Shown: positions 2,840-40,001 of the stretch, in pieces
Layout: every line of letters begins with the position of its first letter
Position numbering within the stretch: the stretch's first letter is position 1
The notes under the pieces: generated by a model
Seen by the model: only the letters and a program-made list of their open reading frames with translations
What the model was told of the DNA's origin: nothing
The model's database searches: none
From: Sanderia malayensis
Lineage: Eukaryota; Cnidaria; Scyphozoa; Semaeostomeae; Pelagiidae
Direction of reading: 5' to 3'
DNA length: 64,000 nucleotides
Assembly: GCA_013076295.1 (NCBI GenBank)
Contig: RQOL01000729.1
Coordinates: 5,270,001-5,334,000 of the forward strand
Made by a program: the position numbers and the translations under genes

Positions 2840-3766
2840 ATGGTGAATTACTGTCGTATCTACGGCTGTCATAGTAGGCAAGATCGAGAATCACAACTCA
2901 AATTTTATAGACTGCCAAAGATAATTCGAAACCAAGGAGAAAACACGTTGAAATTGAGCGAGGAACGGCAGTTGAAGGAAAGAACTTGGACAACATTAGA
3001 ATTTTCTCACTCCATTTTGTGTCAGGTAATCATGAATTTCTATATTGTGTTTAGAATGTGTTTAATAGGCAATATGAGAAACATATGGGTTCCTTCTAGG
3101 GTCAAACAAAACCACAGTTGACATTCTAAGATCAAGCCTAAAATGGTGGGCCTAAATGTAGCATAACAGTTAACATTATTTCTTTTTGAAGCCTTTTTGT
3201 TCAGTATCTAAGAAAATAAAAGTTGGTTGCCTGTGCAAGGAATCAACTAATAGTAAGTATTTTCGATACCCCTAAGTGGTAAAATACTCTTACCAACCAG
3301 ATCTCATAATAGCAGCACCTTCTATGGTCGGGGCCTCTTGAATAAACCTAACCTTTGTTTAATTACACAGGTAAAAAAGCAGATCTTTATCAAAGAGATG
3401 ATCCAGACTGGGTTCCTTTTCTGCAAATGATGCCTGAGGGCAACCTGCCTTATGAGAAGGATTACTCACAATCAGCAACAGAAAGATTTACACGATGCAG
3501 GATCGTTTTTAAAGGAAAAAGGCTATGACTACAGCAACCACCACATCAGATCAGATCTTTTAACAGAGCTTATTGATACCCATAATTTGCATGTGGAAAA
3601 TAACTCTGGCATTGAAGTTCAGACAGATTTGACAGCAGGTCTTATAGATGCAATGGAGAATGAACTGAAGACGTTAAGAGCTGAAAACATGGAATTGAAA
3701 AAGAAGTTACAGTCAAGCAGCATCTCATTAGTAATAGTAATATACATGTTTGTGGTCAAGCTTTAG
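2840..3766 (+). pseudogene. THAP-domain protein (broken)
   Basis: The start MVNYCRIYGCHSRQDRE with LKFYRLPK is the N-terminal half of a THAP zinc-binding DNA-binding domain (C-x4-C, then the F-x-LPK block). The frame shifts before the second half, NLDNIRIFSLHFVSG, whose third zinc ligand (normally Cys in the C-S-x-H-F motif) is Phe. Exon 1 ends at 3025 (donor gtaatc) and exon 2 starts at 3371, in matching phase, with ADLYQRDDPDWVPFL. A further frameshift leads to 3452-3766, which ends in a coiled coil (ENELKTLRAENMELKKKLQ). The 3' end abuts the YqaJ gene of the opposite strand with no spacer, suggesting an internal deletion. Confidence 0.75.
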
Positions 3767-4073: not shown

Positions 4074-6328
4074 TCTAATATATATATTCTGCGGAGTCAC
4101 GTGATGACGCACTTTCCTTGCCAAAAACAATGGATTCGACCCGAAACAATAGGTCAAACGCCCAAAAACAATGGGCCGAAACGGCGAACCGTGTGATCAC
4201 AAAGGCTTTTTTGCATGTGGGTATAAGGCAATGAAATTCACACTGAATGTTTAGTTTATTAATTTAACCAGGGTAATGGATTTTGTTTTTCGATTTTCTC
4301 CTGAAATTTTGAATTATTCCACTAATTATTCTGCTAATTTGTGCTATCACGAAAAAACTACGGTTTACGCTGGCGAAACTTCCAAATTCGCGTCCCGAAC
4401 TCCATTTTCGAACATAGTATTCGCTGTTCATGTGACCCGTTTCGCCTTTTGCTGGAATTTGATTGGCTCTTTCGCGACTTCACGTGAACAGTCACGCATA
4501 TTTCGTAATCATGCAAATTTGCCCTCGGGTTGAACAGCAGGTACTTTTGGAGAAGACACGTGTTTTTGTTTTGAACACAAAGGATAACTCGGCGCCTTTC
4601 AAAGTGTTTTACGACCTGAATTAATTTTGTAAAGACTTGCTAATTGTTTGAGAGACCTCTGGAAAATTACAAGAAACAATTCAGAACACAGGTGATAGCT
4701 TTGTTTTGTTTTTTGATTGAGATGGTTGTAGTTTTTGTAGTAGGCGACCGCCATTGTTGCTTCGGCATGCTGGCGACGCTTAGGCCTAATGTCAACAAGC
4801 CCAAAGTTTTATTAAACAAATTATGATAAGGGGTTATCAGGCGAGCGAAGCGAGCCAAACTGTTGCAAGAGGAGTAGGCAGAGGCATGAGCGAAGCGAAT
4901 GCAGCGCACGAAGTGCGCCCTATCAAGCAATGTTTCTTGATAATAGATAGACAGGCGAGCGCAGCGAGCTAACCCATTGTACGTGGGGTTGAAAGAGGCA
5001 TGAGCGAAGCGAATGCAGCGCACGAAGTGCGCCCTATCAGACAATGTTTCTTGATAATAGATAGACAGACGAGCGCAGCGAGCTAACCCATTGTACGTGG
5101 GGTTGAAAGAGGCATGAGCGAAGCGAATGCAGCGCACGAAGTGCGCCCTATCAGACAACGTTTCTTGATAATAGATAGACAGGCAAGCGCAGCGAGCTAA
5201 CCCATTGTACGTGGGGTTGAAAGAGGCATGAGCGAAGCGAATGCAGCGCACGAAGTGCGCCTTATCAGACAATGTTTCTTGATAATAGATAGACAGGCGA
5301 GCACAGCGAGCTAACCCATTGTACGTGGGGTTGAAAGAGGCATGAGCGAAGCGAATGCAGCGCACGAAGTGCGCCCTATCAATCAATGTTTCTTGATAAT
5401 AGATAGACAGGCGAGCGCAGCGAGCTAACCCATTGTACGTGGGGTTGAAAGAGGCATGAGCGAAGCGAATGCAGCGCACGAATTGCGCCCTATCAGACAA
5501 TGTTTCTTGATAATAGATAGAAAGGCGAGCGCAACAAGCTAACCCATTGTACGTGGGGATGAAAGAGGCATGAGCGAAGCGAATGCAGCGCACGAGGTGC
5601 GCCCTATCAGACAATGTTTCTTGATAATAGATAGACAGGCGAGCGCAGCGAGCTAACCCATTGTACGTGGGGTTGAAAGAAGCATGAGCGAAGCGAATGC
5701 AGCGCACGAAGTGCGCCCTATCAGACAATGTTTCTTGATAATAGATAGACAGGCGAGCGCAGCGAGCTAACTTATTGTACGTGGGGTTGACAGAGGCATG
5801 AGCGAAGCGAATGCAGCGCACGAAGTGCGCCCTATCAGACAATGTTTCTTGATAATAGATAGACAGGCGAGCGCAGCGAGCTAACCTATTGTACGTGGGG
5901 TTGAAAGAGGCATGAGCGAAGCGAATGCAGCGCACAAAGTGCGCCCTATCAATCAATGTTTCTTGATAATAGATAGACGGGCGAGCGCAGCGAGCTAACT
6001 CATTGTACATTGGGTTGGAAGAGGCATGAGGGAAGCGAATGCAGCGCACGAAGTGCGCCCTATCAGACAATGTTTCTTGATAATAGATAGACAGGCGAGC
6101 GCAGCGAGCTAACCCATTGTACGAGGGGTTAAAAGAGGCATGAGGGAAGCAAATGCAGTGCACGAAATGCGCCAACCACAGGCGAGCGCAGCGAGCTAAC
6201 TCATTGTACGTGGGGTTGAAAGAGGCATGAGTGTAAGCGAATGCAGCGCACGAAGTGCGCCAACCACATTAAGTTTTTCTCACTTGCCCCCCTCCGGGAA
6301 GCGAGCGTACGCGAGCGCCCCCGGCTAG
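4074..6328. mobile_element. Non-autonomous Helitron 1
   Basis: It starts TCTAATATATAT after host A4073 and ends GCCCCCGGCTAG before host T6329, which is the canonical A|T target with TC and CTRR ends. The 5' end aligns with the copies at 61296 and 63477 (TCTCTAATATATAATC, then CACGTGAC). The insertion splits the YqaJ gene exactly between two codons (agt ata | tgc tat). The 2,255-bp copy encodes no Rep/helicase. Its 3' two thirds is a 114-bp minisatellite. Confidence 0.85.
4838..6275. repeat. 114-bp minisatellite inside Helitron 1, about 12.6 copies
   Basis: The start-to-start distances measured at TGTTTCTTGATAATAGATAG are 114 bp. Each unit contains GGCATGAGCGAAGCGAATGC followed by the perfect hairpin GCGCACGAAGTGCGC (6-bp stem, GAA loop) and a CGAGCGCAGCGAGC block. 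The final unit runs into the Helitron 3' end (CAACCACATTAAG...). Because 114 is a multiple of 3, a spurious 502-codon open frame runs along the - strand. Confidence 0.95.
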
Positions 6329-6361: not shown

Positions 6362-7614
6362 ACGAGCAAGAAGCCAAATCAAGCCAGAGATTGGGAAAGA
6401 ACAATGTGGTTTTGTACAAGATGGAGGTACAAGAAATGCAATATATATGTTTCCAACAATGTCAGAAAGAGCAATAGAGATGCAAAAAGACCTGTATATT
6501 TGTTTTATAGACTACACGAAAGCTTCTGACAAGGTTAAGCGCAAAGAGCTACTCAAAATACTAGAAGGTTTCGATCTATTTGGGAAAGACATTCGACTTC
6601 TTAGAAATTTATACTGGGAACAGACAGCATGCATTAGAATAGGGAATGATAAGAGTGATTTTGTCAAAATTGAGAGAGGTGTTTGACAGGGGTCTGTCTT
6701 TTCCCCAGATCTATTTAATATATACAGCGAAATGATCCGGAGAGAGTTAGAAGGCATTGAAGGATTTAATGTAGGTGGGCATAAATTTAATAACCTGCGT
6801 TATGCTGATGACACTGTGCTAATAGCCCATTCTAAGGAAAACTACAGAGTCTTCTAGACAGAGTTGTGGAAGAAAGTGCGAAAAAGGGTCTTACCATTAA
6901 TTGCAAAAAGACTGAGTGTATGATAATAAGCAAACAACCTGTTCAATCATGTGATCTAAAAATTGAAAACACTACCATCAAACAAGTCTAATCATTCAAT
7001 TACCTTGGAAGCATAGTAACTGAAGATGGAAAATGCGATTCCGAGATTAAGAAAAGGATTGGTATGTCTAAGCAGGCTTTTGAAAAGCTAGGAAAAATAT
7101 TGAGAGATAGAAAAATGTCAATTGAAACAAAGAAGAGAATCCTTCGCTGCTAGGTCTATTCCATCTTGACATATGGCAGTAAATGCTGGACAATATCAGC
7201 TCAGATGGAAAGTCGGTTGAAAGCTGCTGAAATGTGGCTTCTCAGAAGGATGATGAAAATTTCTTGGGTAGATCATGTTTCAAATGAGGAAGTTTTAAGA
7301 AGAGCTGGAGAAGAAAGGAGGCTTATCAAACTCATTAGGAAAAGACAGGCGGAATTCTTAGGGCATATAATGAGGAAAGAACAACCGGAAGAAATAATAA
7401 CAACAGGCAAGATTGAAGGCAAAAGAGGATGTGGACGACCACGTCTGAACTATCTGACAAGTCTCAGTAAATGGATGCAAGCTCAAGTTCCTAAGCTTGA
7501 GAGAGAAAATTACTCGGTCCAAAAAATGCTAAGAACCTGCAGGGACAGAAAGTTGTGGAAATCTATGGTCACCTACGTCCTGACAGGACATGGTACCTAC
7601 AGAGAGAGAGAGAG
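6362..7614 (+). pseudogene. 5'-truncated LINE: reverse transcriptase C-terminal two thirds
   Basis: The frame from about 6362 reads EQCGFVQDGGTRNAI, LYICFIDYTKASDKV (RT motif A), QGSVFSPDLFNIYSEMI and RYADDTVLIAHSKEN (catalytic YADD near 6800). It continues with INCKKTECMI, FNYLGSIVTEDGKCDSEI, MWLLRRMMKISWVDHV and EFLGHIMRKEQPEE. This is an apurinic-endonuclease-class non-LTR element resembling the RTE/L2-like group, and the clade is uncertain. The endonuclease domain is absent because of 5' truncation at 6362. In-frame stops (for example TGA at 6684 in the R-Q-G motif, and TAG near 7152) and a frameshift near 6850 kill it. The 3' end is a GA-rich tail (7597-7614) that resumes at 21831. Confidence 0.9.
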
Positions 7615-7620
7615 CGATAT

Positions 7621-7835
7621 TTAATGTTACAAATGCTGCACATGCATGTTACATTTGCTGCATGGCTCCTACATATGCTGCACAAATGTTACATATGCTG
7701 CATTACCAGCTGCTACATATGCTGCACAAGTATACTACATTTGCTGCATTGTGTGTTACATTCGCTGCACAGTGTGCTACTTTCGCTGCACAGCATGCTT
7801 CATTTGCTGCACTATTTTTGTTACATTTGCTGCAT
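7621..7835 (+). repeat. Left subterminal array of YTACATWTGCTGCA
   Basis: About ten direct copies of a 14-bp motif (TTACAAATGCTGCA, TTACATTTGCTGCA, CTACATATGCTGCA, TTACATTCGCTGCA, CTACTTTCGCTGCA and similar) are separated by 8-12 bp spacers, a period of about 23-25 bp. This regular spacing near an element end is what recombinase or transposase binding sites look like in other transposons. Binding is inference. Confidence 0.85.
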
Positions 7836-8232
7836 AAGACCTGAAAACGAGGCTAGGTGGCCTTGCAATTTTTGAGACTGTTTTTGTGTTTGTGCTTATG
7901 GTGCATTCCACTCTGCTGATCATCTTCAAGAAACGTGCATTCTTCGCTTGAAAGAATTATCAGTGAAATAATCAGTGGTAAGTGAATTTTTCATATAACT
8001 TTAGATAATTGCTGATTATGATAGTGCCATAATAGCTTTGTATCAAAGCTATGTAGCTTGATGCTCCAACCCGGAAGTTGAATTTCTTGCTTTCAGCTTC
8101 ATATTTCATGCTTTAAGTTCTTTAATCTAGCTGTTTTTACGGAACTCATACTTACTCTGCCCAGGCAGCTATTTGGTTTTTGTGACAATCATCCTACTTA
8201 TTTAGATTTGTTAATTTTTGTTGTTGTTTTAG

Positions 8233-11200
8233 GCACGCTACAAAATCGCTTAGGAGGCCTGTGAAATGTCAAGAAGACCTGGATTTGAAATTGGTAGGTG
8301 AACGATAATTACTTTGAATTTATTGTTAATTTGATATTTTGAAATTACTTTAATCGTTTCTTTTCTTTTAGTTTCTTCAGAACAATGTGATCCTGATGGA
8401 AAAAATGGTGAGGCTGGCTTTCTACCTATTTCATATTGGTATTACCCTACATATGGGCAATTCAAGTTACTTGACATTAACTTTCCAAAATACTATCAAA
8501 TTTTAAGGGCAAATCCTCTCTTTTTTAGAAGCTGTTGAATTATTTGATGACGACATGGATTCAAATAATGAAGAAAAAGGTAAACTGGATACTCTAAACC
8601 ATATTCTTCAAGGCCAATCTTCAAAGGAAATTAGAATTTAATCGAAACACAAAGAGTTTTTTCCTGTTACGTCATCTTCCAAAACTAAAACTATATTGAA
8701 TTACCGTAAATCCTCGAATTGCCTCCCCCTCGAATAAGCCCCCCCTCGAATATGCCCCTACCCTAGGACCACAAATTGTTAATAATCTTTGATCGGTACA
8801 GAACTTCAAAATAGCTTTGAAAATCGGAAACATAGTGAAACAATAACTACTAAAGCTTTTCGTCTGACACTCATCGGAGTAATACATCAGAAAGAGAAAG
8901 AAAATAAAAACCTAACAAACAATTATACCCAAAAGAGGATCGGAATTGGCCAATCAGAAAAGAGGTGAATGATTGGTATAGCGCTTGCATACAGCGAGTT
9001 CGAGACAATTTTGTTTTTCTAACCGTTTTTTCACCAATATCTGAGCATTCTTCTGATTATCTGTGTATGAAAAATACTTCGCTGTAACAACTAAACCAAT
9101 TTCCCGTTTCTTTTCCCAGTAACAACATCAATTTTTGCACCATATTTCAGATAGCTTTATAAGCCCCCCCCCCCTCGAATAAGCCCCCCTCTGAAAATGT
9201 CAAAAATAAATAAGCCCCCAGGGGGCTAATTCGAAGATTTACGGTAATTGTCTTATATACTTGTCTTCTAATTCTACTACATTTCATTTCCAGGCAGCAA
9301 TAAAACAAAACACTCTTCAGATGATAAAAGGAGCAAAGGTATAGATTAAAATTATGTGCATATATTATATGTTTAAGGCAGCAATAAATCAGGCTCTTGT
9401 TAAACTAACCAAAGTATCATATGTAAGCATAGCCTAGTATTACGTCTGTAAGGAAACCATGAATGAGGCTCATATCTAGCTAATAAGCACATTATTTGCG
9501 CTAAAAATAGCTTAGTATTTGAGGGTTATAAGGCAGCCAAAAATAAAGCTCTTATTTGATTAATCATCACAACATTTGTGTTAAGCACAGCTTAGTACTT
9601 CAAGTATATGACGTTGCCATAATTAAGGCTGTTATCTGGCTAATTGTCACATATTTTTGTCAGGCATGGCATGGTATGTAAGGTCTGTAAAACAGATATA
9701 GGTAGCGCTGATATATAACTAATCATCATATTGTTTGCACTGAGTATTAATTAGTATTTAGGTTCTGTTGGGCAGCTATAAGTAAGACTGATGACTGGCT
9801 CATCAGTGCATCATTAGCTCATTTGCACTAAGCATGGCTTAGTATTTTAAGTATAAAAAGCAGCCATAGATTAAGATCATAGTTTATGTTCTCATTCAGA
9901 CCTGCGAATTGTCATTACATCACATTTTATCCTTTTCATTCAAGGATCTTCCAAAACTGGAACAAGAAAACGAGAAACGCAATGCCCTGTCAAAACATGC
10001 CGTGTTAAACGTTATGACCTGCCTCGTCATATGCGGAAAGTGCACAATTGGCCGGACTCTGAAGCAAAACATGTCAAGGCCTTGTACGGACTACGGAAAA
10101 CATATGATAGTCAGGTGAAGCGAAAAAATCCAGAGTTGAAAAACTATCATGTTCCCAAAGCTTGCTCAGTTGAAGGGTGTAGGGCTGTTGTCATCAATCT
10201 TCCGAGACATTTGTCAGCTGTACACAAGGTTGATCCGAAAAGTGAGGAATTTGACATATTGAAGGCAAGAGCCGTACGAATGGAGAATTCTAAGTCACAA
10301 AAGACAAAAGTTCACACAGGAATACAACAGCAGAAATCCTTGACTTTGATCCTTAATCAAGGACTGATTGAGTCTGATTCTGATGACTCATCATTTGTAT
10401 GTTACACAGAATCTTCATCATCACCCTCTTCATCTTCCCTGTCTGAATGTGAAAGCCAGAAAAGGCAGCCAGAAAATAGAGAAGAACCTTATGCTTCAGG
10501 TAGCTTTCAACCAGAGCCATTCATACCACCAACGCCAGATATCGACCAGTATGAAGAGAGTACTGATTGTGATTACCAAGAGAGTGTCATCTCTGATGAT
10601 GATCTCATTGCGGAGATAGCAGTGCAGTCCCCAAAAGAAGAAATCAACGAAATTATGGATTCTTTCTACAATTTTTTGGTGTCTGCTGACTCCGCAAACA
10701 AAGACCCAAAGTCTGCACAGCAGTGCAGAGAGAGGGTAATAACAATCCTCAAAGTTGTTGATGAAACATATGACCCACAGAGCTTGCTGAACAGGAAAAT
10801 AATCCGGGACATTTTCCTCAAGCAGTATTGCCGCCAAAAGAATTTCCACCCTAAAACGATCCAAGCATATCTCACAAGCCTGTCTCACTTTTGCAACTAT
10901 GTGATAACTGAAAACATATCTGCATTTGACTGTGCTAGTGCAACGAGCTTTCAGACGCGACTAAAGACGTGGAAGTCGTCCTACATGAAAGAGGTGAAGA
11001 TAAAGGATATGGCAAAAATGGAGAATGACAGGCGAACAAAAATTACTCCTGATCATATTGTAAAATTTGAACAATCAAGCATTGTAAAGGAAACAATCAA
11101 GTTTCTGGGTATACTTGAAGAAAAAGACTTAGAAGTAACACAACATCGTTTTTCAAGTGTTAGGGACCTGCTGATTACTGAAATCTTCATAGATAATGGC

Positions 11201-12321
11201 CACAGAGCTGGTGTATTGGCCAATATGACGATGGGTGAATACGATAATATTGAATCAAAGAAGGGCCATCATACAATAACAGTTTTTAAACACAAAGAAG
11301 CACGTGCAGGGCCAATTAGAGTCATAATGAACGACAAGCTGTTTGGATGGGTGAAGATCTACATAGAAAAAGTTCGCCCCACCGTAACAGATGATATTTC
11401 ATCTTCGTCAAAGGTTTTTTTAACCTGGAATGGAGCCCCATTCATAAACTCGGGAGGCATAAGCAATGCCTCCACGGCTCTATGGAAGAAGGCTGGCATG
11501 GAAGGACGTTGTGGAGCCAATAAGTTCCGTAAAGCTGCAGTTTCGGCTGTTAGAAGTGAGAATCCCGAATCAGAGCTTATCCATAAAGACCTTGCAAACT
11601 TAATGGGCCATAAGAAAAGCACAGCCGATCGATACTACCATATGGAAGAGAAAGTTCAGTCATCGGATAGGGCTGCAAAAGAGCTTCCGAGCATCATGCG
11701 CAAATGCAATAACAGCATAATGGAGAAGGAAGGGGATGAAAAGGTTGACCAGGAAGACGAAGGAAAAGAATCATACCAGCAAAGTGTTGCTAATGCCAAG
11801 CGAAAGAACTTTTCAGATGGAGAATTGGCTGTTATAGAAGATATATTTTCTTCTGAAATAGAGATGGGCAGCATAATTTGAGCACTGTCCTGGAAAAAAT
11901 TGCAGAAAACTCACAGCTACAAGGTTGCTCGTCCAGGAGAGTCTATGATAAGGTTCGCCAGCTGTGCAAAAGAAAAAAAAGTGCAGAAACCCTTGCTTTG
12001 CCTACAGACTGCGAATCACTTCAAGACCGAATTGAAAGAATGACGGAGTCAAGAAGCGACAAAACCAGCCACGAGAGTGATGAAGACTTCTTGCCAACCA
12101 CATCATCCTCAAAAGTAAAGGACCTATTTGGTGCCAAAGAGCTGAAACTGTTGAAGGATGGTTTCAAAACCATTATCGCCAAAAGAAGTGTCCGGGAAGA
12201 AGATGTCCAGGCTGCTATTAACAGCAATCACGCCGCAAAAAAGCTATCTGAAATTATGAAAGTCACCACAATAAAGAATAGATTGAAATATGAAATAAGA
12301 AAAGCGAGGGCTCAGAAATAA
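8233..12321 (+). CDS. Crypton-like tyrosine recombinase with two C2H2 fingers, six coding exons
   Basis: Exons: 8233-8293 (ATG at 8266), 8372-8407, 8529-8579, 9294-9338, 9945-11881. All junctions are GT-AG and in matching phase, and a 5' UTR exon may end at 7977 (donor gtaagt). To 11881 this encodes about 698 aa: acidic linker, two C2H2-like fingers (CPVKTCRVKRYDLPRHMRKVH, here split as C-x4-C and H-x4-H; CSVEGCRAVVINLPRHLSAVH-type), a Ser/Asp-rich linker, an SAM-like core-binding region, then the catalytic domain. Catalytic candidates are Arg in DNGHRAGVL, Lys in FKHKEA, Arg in NKFRKAAVSAV, His in LMGHKKS and Tyr in DRYYHM. A second frame continues from 11878 to 12321 with two SANT-like helical blocks. 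AATAAA at 12317-12322 overlaps its stop. It is far better preserved than its neighbours. Confidence 0.8.
8704..9244. mobile_element. MITE in an intron of the recombinase gene
   Basis: Ends are CCGTAAATCCTCGAATT and, on the other strand, CCGTAAATCTTCGAATTAGC, flanked by TA on both sides (8702-8703 and 9245-9246), suggesting a TA target. Subterminal C-rich AATAAGCCCCCC tracts are shared with a relative at 27621-27974. No ORF of note. Confidence 0.75.
9375..9900. repeat. Degenerate ~82-bp tandem repeats in the last intron
   Basis: The block GGCAGCCATAAATAAGGCTC recurs, diverged, near 9375, 9453, 9531, 9612, 9690, 9771 and 9863, each followed by a TAATCATCACA-like and a GCTTAGTATTTAAG-like segment. 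It fills most of the intron 9339-9944. Confidence 0.65.
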
Positions 12322-12539
12322 AAACAATTGAAAAAACTCTTAACAAGAAGTTCTGTTTTAATTTTAACCATATAACTACAATAAGCTTCTTGTGTTTACT
12401 ACCATTTTCTTTCAACTGTTTAACTAATTTCAACTGATTTAAGAGTTCTTGTGATGGATTAATTTGGTTTCTTAATTGCTTTGCACTCTTACGCCCAATT
12501 GATGAGATATCAGTGCTGTTTCTTAGACACTGATACTTG

Positions 12540-15500
12540 ATCAGACTATGACCGTGGTATATAGCACAGCTACAGCTTCAACCAATGTTCGACGAGTACT
12601 AACAAGTCAAGTCAAGCCGTTATATATGACTTTTTATAAGGGCTGATACTAGCTTTCTATATTAAAATTATCGTGATGTAGAGTGCAGCTATAGGCAATG
12701 TATTTTATCTGCTAATCATAGCTTAATCAGTACTGGGAATAGCTTGATCTCTAGGCTCATTATATGACCTCTTCCAAACGCAATTACAAGACCTATGGCA
12801 TACTATGAGCCTGGTGTATAGTGCGGGTATATGCAATGTATTTTATCTGATAATCTTGGCTTATTCAGTTATGAGAATACCCTCATCTCTAGGCTCATTA
12901 TATGACCTCTTCCAAACGGAATTACAAGACTTAGGGCTTACTATCACCCTGGTGTATAGTGCGGGTATATGCAATGTATTTTATCTGCTAATCATGGCTT
13001 AATCAGTTATGAGAATAGCTTGATCTCTAGGCTCATTATATGACCTCTTCCAAACGGAATTACAAGACTTATGGCTCACTATGACCCCGGTGTATAGTGC
13101 GGGTATAGGCAATGTATTTTATCTGCTAATCATGGCTTAATCAGTTATGAGAATAGCTTGATTGCTAGGCTCATTATATGACCTCTTCCAAACGCAATTA
13201 CAAGACTTATGGCTTACTATCACCCTGGTGTATAGTGCAGGTATAGGCAATGTATTTTATCTGCTAATCATGGCTTAATCAGTTATGAGAATAGCTTGCT
13301 CTAGGCTCATTATATGACCTCTTCCAAACGCAATTACAAGACTTATGGCTTACTATCACCCTGGTGTATAGTGCGGGTATATGCAATGTATTTTATATGC
13401 TAATCATGGCTTAATCAGTTATGAGACTAGCTTGATCTCTAGGCTGATTATATGACCTCTTCCAAACGGAATTACAAGACTTTTGGCTTACTACGACCCT
13501 GGTGTATAGTGCGGGTATATGCAATGTATTTTATCTGCTAATCATGGCTTAATCAGTTATGAGAATAGCTTGCTCTAGGCTCATTATATGACCTCTTCCA
13601 AACGGAATTAGAAGACTTATGGCTCACTATCACCCTGGTGTATAGTGCGGGTATAGGCAATGTATTTTATCTGCTAATCATGGCTTAATCAGTTATGAGA
13701 CTAGCTTGATCTCTAGGCTCATTATATGACCTCTTCCAAACGGAATTACAAGACTTATGGCTTACTATCACCCTGGTGTATAGTGCGGGTATAGGCAATG
13801 TATTTTATATGCTAATCATGGCTTAATCAGTTATGAGAATAGCTTGATCTCTAGGCTCATTATATGACCTCTTCCAAACGGAATTACATAACTTATGGCT
13901 TACTATCAGCCTGGTGTATAGTGCGGGTATAGGCAATGTATTTTATCTGCCAATCTTGGCTTAATCAGTTATGAGAATAGCTTGATCTCTAGGCTCATTA
14001 TATGACCTCTTCCAAACGGAATTACAAGACTTATGGCTTACTATCACCCTGGTGTATAGTGCGGGTATAGGCAATGTATTTTATCTGCTAATCATGGCTT
14101 AATCAGTTATGAGAATAGCTTGCTCTAGGCTCATTATATGACCTCTTCCAAACGGAATACAAGACTTATGCTTACTATCACCCTGTGTATAGTGCGGGTA
14201 TAGGCAATGTAATTTATCTGCTAATCATGGCTTAATCAGTTATGAGAATAGCTTGCTCTAGGCTCATTATATGACCTCTTCCAAACGCAATTACAAGACT
14301 TTTGGCTTACTACGACCCTGGTGTATAGTGCGGGTATATGCAATGTATTTTATCTGCTAATCATGGCTTAATCAGTTATGAGACTAGCTTGATCTCTAGG
14401 CTGATTATATGACCTCTTCCAAACGGAATTACAAGACTTATGGCTTACTATCACCCTGGTGTATAGTGCGGGTATAGGCAATGTATTTTATCTGCTAATC
14501 ATGGCTTAATCAGTTATGAGAATAGCTTGCTCTAGGCTCATTATATGACCTCTTCCAAACGCAATTACATAACTTTTGGCTTACTATCACCCTGGTCTAT
14601 AGTGCGGGTATATGCAATGTATTTTATCTGCTAATCTTGGCTTAATCAGTTATGAGAATAGCTTGCTCTAGGCTCATTATATGACCTCTTCCAAACGGAA
14701 TTACAAGACTTATGGCTTACTACGACCCTGGTGTATAGTGCGGGTATATGCAATGTATTTTATCTGCTAATCTTGGCTTAATCAGTTATGAGAATAGCTT
14801 GCTCTAGGCTCATTATATGACCTCTTCCAAACGCAATTACAAGAATCATGGCTTACTATGACCCTGGTGTATAGTGCGGGTATAGGCAATGTATTTTATC
14901 TGCTAATCATGGCTTAATCAGTTATGAGACTAGCTTGATCTCTAGGTTGATTATATGACCTCTTCCAAACGGAATTACAAGACTTATGGCTTACTATCAC
15001 CCTGGTGTATAGTGCGGGTATAGGCAATGTATTTTATCTGCTAATCATGGCTTAATCAGTTATGAGAATAGCTTGCTCTAGGCTCATTATATGACCTCTT
15101 CCAAGCGGAATTACAAGACTTATGGCTTACTACCACTCTGGTGTATAGTGCGGGTATAGGCAATGTATTTTATCTCCTAATGATGGCTTAATCAGTTATG
15201 AGAATAGCTTGCTCTAGGCTCATTATATGACCTCTTCCAAACGGAATTACAAGACTTTGGCTTACTACGACCCTGGTGTATAGTGCGGGTATATGCAATG
15301 TATTTTATCTGCTAATCTTGGCTTAATCAGTTATGAGAATAGCTTGCTCTAGGCTGATTATATGACCTCTTCCAAACGGAATTACAAGACTTATGGCTTA
15401 CTATCACTCTGGTGTATAGTGCGGGTATAGGCAATGTATTTTATCTGCTAATCTTGGCTTAATCAGTTATGAGAATAGCTTGCTCTAGGCTCATTATATG

Positions 15501-18416
15501 ACCTCTTCCAAACGGAATTACAAGACTTATGGCTTACTATCACTCTGGTGTATAGTGCGGGTATATGCAATGTATTTTATCTGCTAATCTTGGCTTAATC
15601 AGTTATGAGAATAGCTTGCTCTAGGCTCATTATATGACCTCTTCCAAACGGAATTACAAGACTTATGGCTTACTATCACTCTGGTGTATAGTGCGGGTAT
15701 AGGCAATGTATTTTATCTGCTAATCTTGGCTTAATCAGTTATGAGAATAGCTTGCTCTAGGCTGATTATATGACCTCTTCCAAACGGAATTACAAGACTT
15801 ATGGCTTACTATCACTCTGGTGTATAGTGCGGGTATATGCAATGTATTTTATCTGCTAATCTTGGCTTAATCAGTTTTGAGAATAGCTTGCTCTAGGCTG
15901 ATTATATGACCTCTTCCAAACGGAATTACAAGACTTATGGCTTACTATCACTCTGGTGTATAGTGCGGGTATAGGCAATGTATTTTATCTGCTAATCATG
16001 GCTTAATCAGTTATGAGACTAGCTTGATCTCTAGGCTGATTATATGACCTCTTCCAAACGGAATTACAAGACTTATGGCTTACTATCACCCTGGTGTATA
16101 GTGCGGGTATAGGCAATGTATTTTATCTGCTAATCTTGGCTTATTCAGTTATGAGAATACCCTGATCTCTAGGCTCATTATATGACCTCTTCCAAACGGA
16201 ATTACAAGACTTATGGCTTACTATCACCCTGGTGTATAGTGCGGGTATAGGCAATGTATTTTATCTGCTAATCATGGCTTAATCAGTTATGAGACTAGCT
16301 TGATCTCTAGGCTGATTATATGACCTCTTCCAAACGGAATTACAAGACTTATGGCTCACTATCACCCTGGTGTATAGTGCGGGTATAGGCAATGTATTTT
16401 ATCTGCTAATCATGGCTTAATCAGTTATGAGACTAGCTTGATCTCTAGGCTGATTATATGACCTCTTCCAAACGGAATTACAAGACTTATGGCTTACTAT
16501 CACCCTGGTGTATAGTGCGGGTATTGGCAATGTAATTTATCTGCTAATCATGGCTTAATCAGCTATGAGAATAGCTTGCTCTAGGCTCATTATATGAACC
16601 TCTTCCAAACGGAATTACAAGACTTATGGCTTACTATCACCCTGGTGTATAGTGCGGGTATAGGCAATGTATTTATCTGCTAATCATGCTTAGTCAGTTA
16701 TGAGACTAGGCTTGATCTCTAGGCTGATTATATGACCTCTTCCAAACGGAATTACAAGACTTATGGCTTACTATCACCCTGGTGTATAGTGCGGGTATAG
16801 GCAATGTATTTTATCTGCTAATCATGGCTTAATCAGTTATGAGACTAGCTTGATCTCTAGGCTGATTATATGACCTCTTCCAAACGGAATTACAAGACTT
16901 ATGGCTTACTATCAGCCTGGTGTATAGTGCGGGTATAGGCAATGTATTTTATCTGCTAATCATGGCTTAATCAGTTATGAGACTAGCTTGATCTCTAGGC
17001 TGATTATATGACCTCTTCCAAACGGAATTACAAGACTTTTGGCTTACTACGACCCTGGTGTATAGTGCGGGTATATGCAATGTATTTTATCTGCTAATCA
17101 TGGCTTAATCAGTTATGAGAATAGCTTGCTCTAGGCTCATTATATGACCTCTTCCAAACGGAATTACAAGACTTATGGCTTACTATCACCCTGGTGTATA
17201 GTGCGGGTATAGGCAAAGTATTTTATATGCTAATCATGGCTTAATCAGTTATGAGACTAGCTTGATCTCTAGGCTGATTATATGACCTCTTCCAAACGGA
17301 ATTACAAGACTTATGGCTTACTATCACCCTGGTGTATAGTGCGGGTATATGCAATGTATTTTATATGCTAATCATGGCTTAATCAGTTATGAGAATAGCC
17401 TGATCTCTAGGCTCATTATATGACCTCTTCCAAACGCAATTACAAGACTTTTGGCTTACTACGACCCTGGTGTATAGTGCGGGTATATGCAATGTATTTT
17501 ATCTGCTAATCATGGCTTAATCAGTTATGAGACTAGCTTGATCTCTAGGCTGATTATATGACCTCTTCCAAACGGAATTACAAGACTTATGGCTTACTAT
17601 CACCCTGGTGTATAGTGCGGGTATATGCAATGTATTTTATATGCTAATCATGGCTTAATCAGTTATGAGAATAGCCTGATCTCTAGGCTCATTATATGAC
17701 CTCTTCCAAACGGAATTACAAGACTTATGGCTTACTATCACCCTGGTGTATAGTGCGGGTATATGCAATGTATTTTATATGCTAATCATGGCTTAATCAG
17801 TTATGAGACTAGCTTGATCTCTAGGCTGATTATATGACCTCTTCCAAACGGAATTACAAGACTTATGGCTTACTATCACCCTGGTGTATAGTGCGGGTAT
17901 ATGCAATGTATTTTATATGCTAATCATGGCTTAATCAGTTATGAGAATAGCCTGATCTCTAGGCTCATTATCTGACCTCTTCCAAACGGAATTACAAGAC
18001 TTATGGCTCACTATCACCCTGGTGTATAGTGCGGGTATATGCAATGTATTTTATATGCTAATCATGGCTTAATCAGTTATGAGACTAGCTTGATCTCTAG
18101 GCTGATTATATGACCTCTTCCAAACGGAATTACAAGACTTATGGCTTACTATCACCCTGGTGTATAGTGCGGGTATATGCAATGTATTTTATATGCTAAT
18201 CATGGCTTAATCAGTTATGAGAATAGCCTGATCTCTAGGCTCATTATCTGACCTCTTCCAAACGGAATTACAAGACTTATGGCTCACTCTGACCCCGGTG
18301 TATAGTGCGGGTATAGGCAATGTATTTTATCTGCTAATCATGGCTTAATCAGTTATGAGAATAGCTTGCTCTAGGCTCATTATATGACCTCTTCCAAACG
18401 GAATTACTAGGATTGA
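12540..18416. repeat. 136/138-bp satellite array, about 42 copies
   Basis: The anchor GACCTCTTCCAAACG recurs every 138 bp, or 136 bp where the variant agcttgCTCTAGG lacks two bases of agcttgATCTCTAGG. The unit includes CCTGGTGTATAGTGCGGGTA and GGCTTAATCAGTTATGAGA. The first copies (12540-12760) are diverged and the rest are very similar. From about 17260 to 18280, units with GACTAGCTTG...CTGATTATATG alternate with units with GAATAGCCTG...CTCATTAT, i.e. a 276-bp dimeric higher-order unit. The array begins about 200 bp after the recombinase gene polyadenylation signal. Confidence 0.95.
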
Positions 18417-18420
18417 GTCC

Positions 18421-19692
18421 CAATCTATAGAAAATTTCATGCATAAAAATTTCATGCCATTTTTTTTTCTTGTGTGTTATGAAAGAGGAAGTATCATTTT
18501 ATGGTATGATGCACTTTTTTGTTCATTAAAGTATTATTTACCAATTTAAAACAAATGTTGTAAAAGCGGCTTTAAAATTAGCCCCTAACAACCCAGCAGC
18601 ATGTTCAGTGTTCCTGTCTGCTATGGGTTTTCTCCGAAATTTTCCCCGCCAAGATTCCTCAGTGAAATTTCAAATTTTCCCGCTAGTCGAGTTAGCCTCT
18701 TTGCCTTGGTGAGGCCTGTCCATCCAACTATTCATTGCAGGATAAGCGATCCAAGAAGACCATGATTCGCCGCCATTTTTGTCAATTCTTTTCTTGCTGT
18801 CACTGTTCAACTTTTGCAATAAAGTAAAACGCCTTGTGTTTTGAAGAAGAAAAGCAAAGGGTTCTTCGGAAAGACAAAGTTGTATTGAATGAAGAGCAAG
18901 ATCGTGTTGTAAGTACTGAAATAAGTCCCGGAGCCAGTTGTAGGAATGAAACTGGAGAAGATGGAGCAGGGCCTAAATCCCAGACAATGAAACGCCCAAA
19001 ACAACTGCCAGAAAAGAACATGCGAAGTATATGTAAAGCTCGCCCATTCTGATTTTAAGAAACTTGAATGTGGAAAGAAGCTAGCAAGATCTTTCAGAAC
19101 TAAAATTGGCTTCCCAAGAAGTCAAATACTGAAGAGGCCAGTGGGATAAAAATCCTTGTAATATATTTTTTTGTAGTGTTTGTTTAACACCGTTTTTCTC
19201 AAAACTTTATATTTACAGTATCTCATCCTTTAGAAACAGTTTATTCCAAAACTGTGATTCCTTCAATGCTCCAATTTTATCATTACGTTCAACTTACTTA
19301 GTATTACAAATTGTACAATAGAAATTTAAAAATGTTTTGAAAATCCACTGTTACTATTGAAAAGGTGCTTTTTGGGCAGCTTCACATTTATACAAGGAAG
19401 GAAAATTAACATTGCTTAAATTAAAAATGTTGGTGTTGTTAATTTTTAAGTAAAAGTTTTTGCCAAGTATCTGTTCTGCTTTAAGAAAAAATGTTCCTAA
19501 GGTTTGAAAGTACCCTTCAATTAGTTACCGTTGTCATGGTAATGAAACCCTATTTTTCAGTTTTATTATTATTTTTGAATTATATGAATACAGAACTATC
19601 TTCCTGCAAATTTTTGACTCAATATCTTCATCCGGGCCATCACAATTCTAGATTATCTGGAAAGTTCCATTTTAGAATTTTCTATAGACTGT
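18421..19692. mobile_element. 1.27-kb insertion in the satellite with short inverted ends
   Basis: Left end CAATCTATAGAAAATTT. Right end on -: ACAGTCTATAGAAAATTC. GTCC lies on both sides (18417-18420 and 19693-19696), consistent with a 4-bp target duplication, and satellite sequence resumes immediately. The only open frame of note (18834-19052, about 72 codons) resembles nothing I recognise. Superfamily unknown. Confidence 0.6.
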
Positions 19693-19696
19693 GTCC

Positions 19697-19857
19697 TTAC
19701 TATGACCCTGGTGTATAGTGCAGCAATAAGCAATGTATTTGATCTCCTAATCATGGCTTAATCAGTACTGGGAATAGCTTGATCTCTAGACTCATTATAT
19801 GACCTCTTCTAAGCGCAATTACTAGGATTAGGTCTTACTGCGACCCTGGTGTATAGT
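19697..19857. repeat. Diverged satellite copy between inserts
   Basis: Same 138-bp family (ACCCTGGTGTATAGTGCAGC, GGCTTAATCAGTACTGGGAA) but visibly more diverged than the main array. It resembles the left-edge copies at 12680-12780. Confidence 0.85.
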
Positions 19858-20217
19858 CAGTGGTGATTTCTAAAAAAATTAACAAGGGGGGCTCCAAAAG
19901 CAAAACCTCTAGAGTGGGTGTGGTTTTTGTGACCACACCCATGTTTTCATGGGCGCAAATATGAAAAACGTGTTATAAACTTTTAAAGGAATAGAAACAA
20001 CTGAATAAAACACCGACGATACGAGAATTAACATCTGGCATGCAACGGATATCAGAAACTTTACAAATGAGGCCTTTAAAGTTTAACTTCTGGATAACGA
20101 GAAATTTTGCAGAGCACAAATGCAGAGAATGTTTGAGGGGGCTGCGCCCTCCCAAATTCAGCCTATATTTTCACAAGGGGGCTCCGCCCCCTGCGCCCCC
20201 CCTAGAAATCACCACTG
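19858..20217. mobile_element. 360-bp MITE with perfect 15-bp inverted ends
   Basis: Begins CAGTGGTGATTTCTA and ends TAGAAATCACCACTG, exact inverted repeats. It interrupts the satellite unit at gtgtatagt | gcaggtatagg. I cannot define a clear target duplication (only tt before gcagg on the right), so the superfamily is open. It contains GC-rich GGGGGCTCC and GGGCTGCGCCCTCC tracts. Confidence 0.8.
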
Positions 20218-20790
20218 TTGCAGGTATAGGCAATAATGTATTTTATCTGCTAATCATGGCTTAATCAGTTACGAGAATAGCTTGATCTCTAGGCTCATTA
20301 CATGACCTCTTCCAAACGTAATTACAAGAATCATGGCTCACTATGACCCTGGTGTATAGTGCGGGTATAGGCGATGTATTTTATCTGCTAATCGTGGCTT
20401 ATTCAGTTACGAGAATAGCTTGATCTCTAGGCTCATTACATGACCTCTTCCAAACGTAATTACAAGAATTATGGCTCACTATGACCCCGGTGTATAGTGC
20501 GGGTATAGGCAATGTATTTTATCTGCTAATCATGGCTTAATCAGTTATGAGAATAGCTTGCTCTAGGCTCATTACATGACCTCTTCCAAACGCAATTACA
20601 AGAATCATGGCTTACTATGACCCTGGTGTATAGTGCGGGTATAGGCGATGTATTTTATCTGCTAATCATGGCTTTATCAGTACTTTGAAAAGCTCGATCT
20701 CCAGGCTCAGTATATGACCTCTGGAAAGCACATTTTCTAGGGTTATGCTTGGCTATGATCGTTGTGCATAGTGCAGCTATAGCCATAGGT
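20218..20790. repeat. Satellite array, right remnant (about 4 copies)
   Basis: Continues the 138-bp family with its own diagnostic variants (ATTACATGACCTCTTCC, CAAGAATCATGGC). The last copy, near 20690-20780, degrades into unique sequence. Confidence 0.9.
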
Positions 20791-21003
20791 ATAGGTTTTT
20801 ACAGGGCTACATATTTGTAAAAATATGTTCAGAAGTCATAATTGCTATATTATCTGTTTTGTCACTATAATGATCCAAATAGCACAGTTTGGCGGCTCAT
20901 TCAAAGATCTAGCATGTCAAGAAGGCTAATTGTAATGCTTTTTTTTAACAAACTTCCAATAATTAGGTATGTTCTATTTTATGAACTCAAGTATCGCAAA
21001 ATG

Positions 21004-21812
21004 CTACAAATGCTGCATATGCTCTTTTTAGAGTGTGCAGCACATGTAGCACACAGAAAGTTTTGACATGGTTTTTTTCGCTGATAATCTTGACTCTGTC
21101 TCTATCCCTTTGCCATGCAGCTAAGTAGAATGTCCACCTATGCTTTTACAAATTCATCCTATTTGCCACTGTATTTTGGTTGAAATAAAATACTTTTCAA
21201 ATATCGCATGCAGGGGTAAAAATATCGCAAATCTGTGACATCTGCTGCACTGCTACGCAAATGTTGAATTCTAGAAAATGCCCCCGGATTCCTATATTTC
21301 TCATCCAGAAGCTTTAATTTTTTTACCAAACCATTATTAGTGTATGCTGAACCCGTGTGCAGCTGTCATGATAAAGGAACTATAGTAGCTTTTTCAAAAA
21401 TGAAGGTTAAAGTTAAAAATGAGGAAAACGTGTAATCGTAAAAAATTCTGAACAGCGTTTCGACTATAACTACATATATAAGCTGGTGTTTTCTTGCGGG
21501 GTCAAAAACTCCAGTTTTGGTGAATAGTGATTGCCCAAGGTACACTGAAAATTTACTTTGGCCATAGTAGAAGGTCATTTTAGATCAAGGAGACAAATTA
21601 AAGTGGCTTTTCTGCACTTTCCAACGATAATGTTACATTTGCTGCATTTAGATAGCTGTTTTGCTGTTAAAATTAAACGAATTCCAGTTTTTCAAAAAAC
21701 AACAATACCCTGATGTCTGCACACTCTTTTTCAAAGAAATAAACCTTGAAATGTGGCTTATCACTGAAAACTTTGTTAAGCAGGCAAAAAAAAACGCAAA
21801 TGCAGCACATGT
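21004..21812. repeat. Right subterminal copies of the TGCTGCA motif
   Basis: CTACAAATGCTGCA at 21004, its inverse TGCAGCACATGTAGC near 21036, TGACATCTGCTGCA near 21236, TTACATTTGCTGCA near 21633, and the inverse CAAATGCAGCACATGTTGC near 21796. At least five copies occur in both orientations, matching the left array at 7621-7835. Outside these motifs I see no gene in 20790-21830. Confidence 0.75.
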
Positions 21813-21826
21813 TGCAAAACTTAAAT

Positions 21827-21830
<4 letters not shown>

Positions 21831-21862
<32 letters not shown>

Positions 21863-32506: not shown

Positions 32507-35500
32507 ATGAAAATGAACATCGATACTAGTATATCAACTTGTCAAGAGGGAGAACTTGGTTATATTTTAAATAGTTCTATTCAGGGAAACTTTAATCAAG
32601 GTGATGCAAGGTTTGAACTTACAGCTGGAAGACAATGTGTATGCAATTCTCTTACTGCATTAGTATGGTCTGTTGTAAAGCATATACAGTGGTGGGATAG
32701 CTGGGATCTTGACCAAATTTTAATTGAAGGTGACAAATTGTATAAAGGATTAAACACTGACACATTTCTATCTGCAGAGGATATCCCTCAAGTTGTTTGC
32801 CTTTTGGGACATACTTATGAAGTTGAGCATCTCATTAACCACAGTGGTATCTTCAATAATACAAATAACATTAAATTATCTGACATAATTTCTGCTTCAG
32901 CTAATAGGACAGAAAGTGGAATACTGTTATTTATTGATGGGTATTGCATTGCCTTGATATTTACTAAAGCTAGTGTGTATGTATTTGATTCACACAGCAG
33001 AAATGCTATGGGACAACCTGTACCAAATGGATTTTCAATAGTTTTAAAATTTATAAATTTGTGTGAAGTGCAAAAGTATCTTATTCATACATATGTTTTA
33101 AATAGCGACAACTGTAGTTTGCCATTTGAATTACAGTCACTATCCATACATGCAAATTCAAATAATATTGCAAATGCTTTTTCTAACTTGAAAAAGCACC
33201 GTAGGCAATGTGAGATTAAAAGGAATCAAAGAAAATTATTATCTGGTGACAATATTAAACAGCCAAAATTATCACATCAAAGCAAAAATTGTGCAGAAAC
33301 AATGATTTCCAATTTTAAGACAAAAATTTTACAAGGTCCATTTTACATATGTGTTGTATGTAATCGCTGTTTATATGAAAGAAGTGTTGTTATTTTTCAA
33401 AGAGAAAAATATGTTATGGAGTCAGCATTGTTATGTGCTGTAGTAGATAGTTTTGATAGCAGGCAATACATTTGCAAAACATGTCATCAAAAATTATGCA
33501 AGAAGAAAGTGCCATGCCAGGCAGTGTACAACAAATTATATGTTCCAGAAATTCCTTCTGAAATTAAAACATTAAACAGGCTTGAAAAGATTTTAATAGC
33601 AAAGAGAGTTTTGTTTAAAAAAATTGCCATCATGCCAAAAGGTCAATCATTGAAAATGAAGGGAGCCATCTGCAATGTACCTTTACAGTCCGATGATGTA
33701 TGTAATATTCTACCACAGCCTGCTAACAGCAATGGCCTTATATTAGTAAAACTTAAGAAAAAATTAGTATATAAAGGTCATGTATATTTTGAGCCTGTTC
33801 GACCAGATTTTATATCAACTGCTCTTCAATACTTGAAAATGAATAATGAGTTGTATGGAGATATTATAATAGACATTAATAAAATAGATAAGCGTTTATT
33901 GAACTTTGGTGATGAAATTTTAAATGTAGAAAACAGTGCAGAAAGTGACTTTCAAGTTCCAAGTTCAAGTTCACCCATAGAAGAAGTGCCGGAAGATGAC
34001 AATCCTTTCGATGTATTGAGAGTAAATACCAATGAGACAATGCTTGTGGGTAACATTCCTTGTCAAATAGACAATGAAGAAATGATTACAATAGCACCAT
34101 GTGAAGGAAAGAACCCTTTACCCATCTATTCTGATGAAAATTGTGAAGAGTTTGCCTTTCCATACTTATTTCCAACAGGAAAATTTGGTTATCAGGCATC
34201 GCGTGATATAAAACTTAGCCCCACTAAGTACTTTAATCAAAGACTGTTGAATTATAAGCAAACATATGCATCAAATGCAGACTACATTTTCTTTGCATCC
34301 TTTGTTTTACAACAGTACAATCTTAATAACTGCATCAATATTGCCATGAAAAAAGTTTTTTCCAGCACAGTAACTGCAGGACAAGTGACCTCAGACTACA
34401 AATCTTTGATGAATTCCCTTATTGCACAGGATAAAGGTTTTTCTTTCATGAGCTCTGTCAAAGGTACCCCAGCATATTGGAAAATTTTTTTGTATGATGT
34501 TGTGGCTATGGTGAAACAGTTAGGCTTACCAACCTTTTTCATGACATTATCATGTGCTGATTTGAGATGGAATGAATTAGTATCAATAATTTCCAAGTTA
34601 AAAGGAGAAAATATGTCTGATCAACAAATTAAGAATCTTTCATATTTTGAAAGATGTGCAATTTTAAACAGCAATCCTGTACTGTTAGCAAGGCACTTTC
34701 AATACCGTGTAGAACTGTTTTTCAAAGATGTTATTATGTGTAAGAATGGTCCATTAGGAGATGTGGTAAATTATGCACTACGGGTAGAATTTCAGGTGAG
34801 AGGGAGCCCTCACATTCATGCATTTCTTTGGGTCAATGATGCACCCACTCTAACCAGTGAATCGACAGATTCTTATACAACTTTTGTTGACAATGTAGTA
34901 AAGTCAGATACTCCATGTCAAAATGAAAAGCCTGAATTGCACCATTTGGTGTGTTCCTATCAAGTTCATAGTCATTCAAAATCATGCAGAAAATATAAGA
35001 ATGCAGAATGCAGGTATAACTTTGGTAAATTCTTCACAGAAACAACAATTATAGCCACACCTATTGCAAAGGATACAAGTGAGAAACATGCAATACTGCA
35101 AAAAAGGAACAAAATTCTTGATATTGTGAAGCAATTCATTGATGAAAACCTTAATCCCTCTATTTCCAACAATGAAAAACAAATTGGAGAAATTGATGAA
35201 ATTCTGAACTCACTGGGGATATCCAAGCATGATTACTACAGTGCACTTCAAATTTCCAATGATGATGATTTTCACATTCATTTTAAAAGGCACCCAAATT
35301 CATGTTTTGTAAACAATTATTTTGAAACTGGTTTGCTTGCATGGGAAGCAAATATCGATATTCAGCTAGTTTTTAACCATTATAAAGCTGTTTCTTACAT
35401 GTGTGCATATTTTTCAAAATCTGAAGATGCAACATCTGAAGCAATGAAGCAAGCTGCAAAAGAGGCATTTACTGAAGGGTTTCAAAATTTTGAGCAGATG

Positions 35501-38497: not shown

Positions 38498-38519
38498 CAA
38501 TATACTGTTTTTTTAGAAA

Positions 38520-40001
38520 ATGGATTGTGAAAATTCACCAAAAAAAAGAAGATTAACATTTTTTGCTAACTCTCCTTCCCCTTCAAAGAAGTCAGCTTCA
38601 AGCTCAACAATGGGTAAGTCCATTAACATTTAATTTACAGTATACAGGATTTTTTGCAAATTTCATTATATGCTTCAGTGACAGACATGAGAGCGGGGCA
38701 ATGGTTGATCCATAACTTTTTTATGATTGTGTAAATTCTTTAAATTGGTTCTATTTACAAATTTAGCTCATTTTTTTGTTTTACTGTTTATGTTTTATTT
38801 AAACAATTATACCAGATGCATGATCACAACTGTCGTACATACCAAATTTGATGAAAAGAGTTTCATCCATGCTTCAACTTTTAACACTATTTTTCTCTCT
38901 GCAGACTTCACGGGTTACATCATAAGTGTTGCTGAGCTTGACTATAGTCAAAATGGTAATCCATTTTATGACATTCATATCAAGACCTCAATTGAAAAGA
39001 CAGAGCTTGTTAGGGTTATGGTTCGTGCAAATCCTGGTGTGAAAAGGCAACTTTTTCTTCAGAAGCAGGCATCTGCCCAACCAATTACATTGAAAAACAT
39101 TGAAAAGACTGACTCAGGAACATCATTTTTTAATTCCTTCAAAGGCAGCTGCATAGAGAATTGCATGGATGTTATTTCCTTTAAAATGGATGATATTCAT
39201 TTTGTGAATTTGTCTGAATTAAATTCAGAAGCTTCTGGATCCTTTAATATTCGTGGCAACCTTCACTGGACCAAGGAACCAGTGGAAATTCAAGTGAGAA
39301 AGAAGCCTTATTCTTCAGGTGCTACCATGCCAAAGTTGGTGAGGGAAGGGATCATTGCTGACATAACTGCCCATTACCCAATTTCCATCTGGTCAGACCA
39401 TGTTAACCTGCCAGATGATACATGGTACACACTCACTGATGTTGTCATCAAGAATTATCAAGGTAAAAAGTTACAAACTACCCCAAGAACAACTGTGTTA
39501 CAAGTTTCTTCTGAAGATACCATTGACTGGGCCACAATTTTGCCAGAAATTGAGAAAGTTGAGCATCCGTCGCCTGCAAAACCATCCAACGCAGGAAATT
39601 CTACTTTGCAGAATGTTGATATCACAAGCGTAAAGGTTAATACTTATCCACAGTGTGCCAATTCCAAATGCAAAAAGAAAGTTCTCATTATTCCTGGTGA
39701 GAATGTTGTCAAATGCAATTCATGTGAGAGAAAAATGCTGCCTTCAAAATGTCCATGTGGACTCAATTGTATAATTGATGTGGTGGATAATGAGAATGAA
39801 ATTTCTTTAACCATATTTCCAACAGAATTAGGAAAACTTTTCCGTGAAGAAATCATTGAATCTTATGGGATGCAACCAGACCTACTCGAAGAAAAAATCT
39901 TAATGCTTAATTCTGTTGATGTTACATTTAACAAAAAGAATGTAGTAACCAAGATTGCCATCAAGGAAAAGGAAGACAGTGAAGAGGGAAATGACCCATA
40001 A
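38520..40001 (+). CDS. RPA-like single-strand-binding helper, two exons, 396 aa
   Basis: Exon 1 38520-38613 (MDCENSPKKRRLTFF, with a basic nuclear-localisation-like PKKRR; donor gtaagt) and exon 2 38905-40001 (acceptor ctgcag) join in phase to give DFTGYIISVAELDY. The protein has OB-fold-like segments and a zinc ribbon near its C-terminal third (CANSKCKKK...CNSC, then CPCGLNC), the layout of RPA70-like proteins carried by Helitron2/Helentron elements. It follows the Rep ORF by 22 bp on the same strand. Presumed role: coating displaced single strand during rolling-circle transposition. No stop or frameshift seen. Confidence 0.85.

Follow-up and report, generated by a model that had tools for sequence, protein, structure and literature searches.

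Is the 14-kb unit that lies between GA tracts in the genome of the scyphozoan Sanderia malayensis a mobile element and, if so, what kind of recombination moves it? The unit was found in a stretch of 64,000 nucleotides (the window), part of contig C686 in an assembly of 184 Mb and 918 contigs, and it carries a tyrosine recombinase (YR) gene and arrays of a short motif near both ends. It is very probably a real mobile element, and it is a well-bounded YR element with an unusual end architecture. Its copies, ends, target context, arrays and predicted protein fold are the sequence basis for reading it as a YR DNA transposon that would use a circle, exchange within a (GA)n core and arm-like sites read by fingers, a reading that we consider probable.

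When the left 601 bases and the right 861 bases were used as queries, each returned one other near-complete match, and both matches lay on contig C900 in the correct order (on contig C866 there were two further, partial matches to the left query). The C900 copy was 13,638 bp long, compared to 14,216 bp in the window; both of its ends were identical to the base, the recombinase gene and the satellite were present, and 14 of the 15 motif sites passed the same threshold. In the left 5.06 kb the copies differed by 4 substitutions and 6 one-base gaps, and in the last 3.5 kb, including the satellite, by 11 mismatches and 2 gaps, with the final 1,048 bp identical. Homology ended inside the GA tract on either side and the flanks were unrelated, so the same defined ends occur at more than one genomic location; the differing flanks rule out that the C900 copy is an allelic duplicate rather than a second insertion. 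The initial annotation had proposed an end-sequence search of the source genome, which found both ends together around a homologous recombinase gene at a second, unrelated GA site. The outcomes it had named beforehand as fatal, ends that never co-occur or a gene alone within closer boundaries, were absent in that genome, since the second copy keeps both ends around the gene.

At the left junction, at 7615, (AG)7 is followed directly by CGATATTTAA, and at the right junction, at 21830, TTAAATATTG is followed by (AG)n. The ends form an imperfect inverted pair, C(G/A)ATATTTAA, which abuts the GA precisely on either side. Nine of the 10 terminal bases match when inverted, as had been noticed from the sequence beforehand; this was reached 25 times in 400,000 draws of random 10-mer pairs from the window. 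Genome-wide and with up to 2 mismatches, the left-end pattern was found at 3 places (the two copies, exact, and C155 with 2 mismatches; reversed controls, 2) and the right-end pattern at 5 (the two copies, exact, C859 and C866:354111 with 1 mismatch, and C613 with 2; reversed controls, 1). The matches at C859:6473559-6473578 and C866:354111-354130 extend over the 20 bases of the right end, GAGAG among them, and share one identical single mismatch; they are possible further right ends. The four mismatched matches may include a few solo ends or short derivatives.

Both insertions are located in GA tails. The window copy was said to have the tail of a long interspersed nuclear element (LINE) on both sides; this holds for the left side only, and on the right the GA tract is followed by a flank that matched only itself in the genome search. 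Five other copies of the LINE end were read (one each in C675, C866 and C391, and two in C847), representing about three independent insertions as judged by downstream sequence, and in each a short (GA)n was followed by other sequence, with no element. The C900 copy is preceded by a different repeat with a LINE-like end. Among the 40 of 1,401 candidates scored for its flanks, with end positions judged by coordinates, at least 8 further matches of this repeat finished within the GA tract, and at least 6 further copies of the right flank started just past it. The two element copies share their orientation relative to the GA strand, which fits the requirement of an exchange inside a GA core, with 2 of 2 being weak evidence. 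Insertion into the (GA)n tails of other mobile elements could spare the host from harm.

The recombinase gene lies beside the left array and is nearly intact, as initially annotated. Its stop-to-stop frame (9875-11881, 668 codons) matched PF00589 with an E of 1.6e-7, and the window copy is counted as carrying one frame break because the conserved C-terminal part sits in another frame. The predicted fold contains two finger folds, a SAM-like domain and a Cre/Xer/lambda-Int fold, and with the PF00589 match it points to a YR catalytic domain with the residues R, K, R, H and Y. In a 21-row alignment, tallied by eye, the H was present in 16 rows and the second Y in 17, the remaining rows being truncated, gapped or different there. 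The public gene model P0001 links exons at window 2840-3724, outside the element, to the recombinase exons; the upstream residues of P0002 differ from those of P0001 and had no alignment within the window. The joining of exons in P0001 may be a prediction artefact, or it may represent real fusion transcripts.

The motif TACATWTGCTGCA was searched across the whole window with up to 2 mismatches, and 24 matches were found, compared to 5.6 expected and a maximum of 13 in 100 shuffles. Fifteen were within the element, in agreement with the ten left and at least five right copies of mixed orientation that had been described: 10 at 7628-7834, all on the forward strand, and 5 at 21005-21813, three forward and two reverse. 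No match was found in the 13 kb between the two groups, and the nine matches outside the element each had 2 mismatches. The left copies are spaced 20-24 nt apart, the mean being equal to 2.05 DNA turns, and the 13-nt core had 1.76 bits per position, compared to 0.46 for the spacers. Cores that are so much better kept than the spacers between them point to binding sites and not to a tandem repeat of recent origin. At either end the outermost site points inward; its distance to the border is 13 bases on the left and 17 bases on the right. Across the 184 Mb, a motif-pair pattern had 15 matches, 4 in the window copy, 4 in the C900 copy and 7 at C866:447532-447777, and the reversed control had none genome-wide.

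We infer three steps from this arrangement: a circle, exchange in a GA core, and arm binding. The recombinase would excise the element as a circle with the junction TTAAATAT-TG(AG)nCG-ATATTTAA, in which an AT-rich inverted pair encloses a GA core. This core would recombine with a genomic (GA)n tract, here the LINE tails, and exchange within the shared GA sequence would leave GA flanking both sides and set the orientation. The catalytic and SAM-like domains would work on the core, while the subterminal TACATWTGCTGCA sites, of which one arm has ten and the other five, would be occupied by the fingers. In lambda integrase, an arm-binding domain at arm sites assembles or regulates the recombination complex, and by analogy the finger-bound arms of the element may do the same.

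The arrays could instead serve the recombinase gene as a promoter or as operators, or be no more than tandem repeats, in an element that is still mobile. The ten-copy array does lie just upstream of the first recombinase exons in the gene models, and the array at C866 is fairly homogeneous and amplified in appearance. However, this explanation is at odds with the five sites at the opposite end, nearly 9 kb beyond the gene, with the inward-pointing sites so close to both borders, and with conserved cores among variable spacers, and we regard it as unlikely.

Another explanation is that the element inserted only once, by whatever means, into a GA tract, and that ectopic or homologous exchange between such tracts then produced the second copy, as gene conversion or through a circle formed by GA-GA recombination, without the recombinase. 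Both flanks of both copies are GA and both left flanks are LINE ends, and because all flanks are GA, homology ending inside GA would also be expected in this case. However, such recombination does not account for a terminal pair that directly adjoins the GA at either end, and the element has a recombinase gene and private motif arrays inside it. This origin therefore appears improbable.

The data do not support cargo in the YR transposon. Its size is owed mostly to the internal 138-bp satellite, for which all 37 genome matches (4 candidates scored) were inside the two copies; on this distribution, the capture of a host satellite as cargo is rejected. Of open frames of 150 amino acids or more, the element had three: two belong to the recombinase and the third is antisense to these. 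Pfam-A was scanned with 10 protein pieces, 2 from the window and 8 of 22 homologues, at an E of 10, with weak matches mostly filtered out; no match to DUF3435 was reported, the presence of that model in the library being unconfirmed. With no DUF3435 match and no cargo genes at this frame length, a Starship with cargo is rejected. The large recombinase-mobilised unit of the initial annotation is thus retained with its defined inverted ends and its recombinase by one end, while its cargo and its likeness to Starships are not. For a DIRS or Ngaro element, there was no further sense frame of 150 amino acids or more for a reverse transcriptase, and the Pfam scan inside the element covered the two recombinase frames. 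An inverted-repeat element with 29-nt arms (86% complementary) was located at 8699-9249, upstream of the recombinase main exon, and aligns continuously with the C900 copy; another, with 15-nt perfect inverted ends, adjoins the satellite remnant at 19858-20217, within the C900-aligned stretch. Coordinates are collected in Table 1.

Table 1. Features of the element and its borders (window positions).
Feature	Position	Strand	Basis or remark
Whole element	7615..21830	+	Identical ends in second copy C900:100833-114470(-); homology stops at GA tracts
Left (AG)7 target tract, LINE 3' tail	7601..7614	+	5/5 other LINE 3' ends read finish in (GA)n without element
Right (GA)15 target tract	21830..21859	+	First G doubles as last element base; then sequence with no second copy in the genome search
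Left terminal inverted repeat CGATATTTAA	7615..7624	+	9/10 inverted match with right end
Right terminal inverted repeat, CAATATTTAA when read inward	21821..21830	-	9/10 inverted match with left end
Left array, ten direct copies of YTACATWTGCTGCA, putative arm-type sites	7628..7834	+	Mean spacing 21.6 nt
Right-end motif site	21005..21017	+	1 mismatch
Right-end motif site	21036..21048	-	1 mismatch
Right-end motif site, weak	21237..21249	+	2 mismatches
Right-end motif site	21634..21646	+	0 mismatches
Right-end motif site nearest end, inward-reading, weak	21801..21813	-	2 mismatches
Small upstream exons of recombinase gene	8231..8593	+	P0001 and P0002 gene-model alignments only
Recombinase main exon (two C2H2 fingers, SAM-like core-binding domain, tyrosine-recombinase catalytic domain)	9944..11881	+	Open frame, Pfam, predicted fold
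Conserved C-terminal part of recombinase, other frame in window copy	11857..12321	+	Continuous with main exon in gene model P0002; similar part in several homologues
Internal 138-bp satellite, 41.8 units	12677..18407	+	Repeat finding and genome search
Second block of 138-bp satellite	20236..20782	+	Repeat finding and genome search

A CryptonA-type element of unusual form would likewise be an animal DNA element with a YR as its only gene among frames of this length. However, no DUF3504 match was reported in the 10 pieces, and the DUF3504 model found another locus in the genome, C781:2336884-2337327, and not the recombinase of the element. The detection of C781 in the same genome indicates that the test was capable of finding such a domain; the model matched none of 14 control genomes. 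Animal Cryptons are also described, in the relevant passages of PMC3212892, as having no terminal repeats. CryptonA is rejected on the features tested, namely the missing DUF3504 match and the inverted 9/10 ends, and an unusual form of it has little probability. The C781 match, CryptonA-type, lies in a 577-amino-acid open frame without stops and may be a candidate transposon or a candidate tamed gene. That the element is what remains of a large DNA virus that used its integrase to enter GA repeats is very improbable: C2H2 and SAM-like domains are typical of the recombinases of crustacean nimaviruses, which enter simple repeats (PMC10871703), but there is no other sense-strand frame of 150 amino acids or more inside, and the ends enclose the recombinase, the satellite and two inverted-repeat elements.

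Several observations weigh against the YR transposon with core and arm sites. With just two good copies, the end structure is known from a single family, and neither a circle nor an excision was seen. Empty sites had been suggested beforehand as a check, and no exact empty allele was found in the genome. The inverted arms, 8 bp exact and 9/10 overall, are shorter than the 11-13 bp inverted repeats around 6-8 bp that PMC3212892 gives in its description of YR sites. Where HxxR usually has its first histidine, the protein has N526, and this position is variable in relatives. With a weight matrix built from the ten left-array sites, the two weakest right-end sites scored 14.8 and 14.9 bits, and because this is barely above the best outside site (14.6), they are not convincing taken alone. 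The remaining points concern C866, where the genome-wide recombinase search (9 candidates scored) found, apart from the two copies, only pieces at C866:451583-454345 with 40-47% identity. These pieces, which cover the fingers and some of the SAM-like region, lie about 4 kb from the C866 array. That array has an inverted orientation with respect to the recombinase, and the sequence retrieved, up to 462,000, contained no match to the catalytic domain. The 28.5 kb read contained no GA/TC run of 6 or more repeats, only two 8-nt runs; the one ATATTTAA-type word in it, at 434393, was 13 kb away from the array. Because two rare features lie within 4 kb of each other in 184 Mb, their proximity would hardly be due to chance; the relic at C866:451586-454340 is possibly a decayed copy or a tamed DNA-binding gene. 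An 88-bp satellite at C866:449924-450800 (L009:6925-7801), between the array and the relic, resembles a GC-rich satellite with 114-bp units at 4838-6173 of the window, outside the element.

Elsewhere in the window, a single open frame at 32507-40001 on the forward strand encodes a Helitron-like protein of 1,996 amino acids, with Helitron_like_N, PIF1 helicase and herpes-tegument-N-like domains and a weak endonuclease match. A frame downstream of it has a weak RPA-like match.

Compared with known systems, the YR transposon possibly represents a new superfamily. That it is a superfamily of eukaryotic YR transposons that has related proteins in at least one coral and one hydrozoan and a lambda-like apparatus, combining an AT-rich inverted core for GA microsatellites with finger-read arm arrays at both ends, is a tentative proposal to which we give slightly less than even chances. 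As in the animal Cryptons, including CryptonA (Kojima and Jurka 2011, PMC3212892), a YR is the only gene found in a DNA element, for which a circle intermediate is proposed and whose boundaries are described as hard to characterise. Unlike them, the element has inverted ends, motif arrays, N-terminal C2H2 fingers and a GA target, and no DUF3504. Starships, as outlined in PMC12134995, also have the recombinase gene at one end and sometimes terminal inverted repeats, and the element is just below their stated 15 kb lower limit; it differs in the lack of a DUF3435 match and cargo genes, in its cnidarian named relatives and in the arrays at its ends. Phaeovirus endogenous elements have a similar plan, with an attP of AT-rich inverted repeats around a short core, direct repeats near one end and an XerH-like recombinase fold, but according to PMC13236599 they belong to a giant virus and the core is CC rather than GA; no viral genes were seen in the element. 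The nimavirus YRs resemble the recombinase by description (PMC10871703) in their C2H2 and SAM-like domains and in simple-repeat insertion, whereas they are reported there from majanivirus genomes of 278-401 kb with (TAACC)n or 28S rDNA as targets. Lambda Int and Tn1549-type integrases share with the predicted protein the core-binding and catalytic fold and a separate N-terminal DNA-binding domain, and by analogy may share the use of core and arm sites; the element differs in being eukaryotic, in having zinc fingers as the presumed arm domain and in having up to ten putative arm sites on one side. With the ends, the target and a candidate binding code visible together, core-and-arm recombination can be put to a direct test in a eukaryotic transposon.
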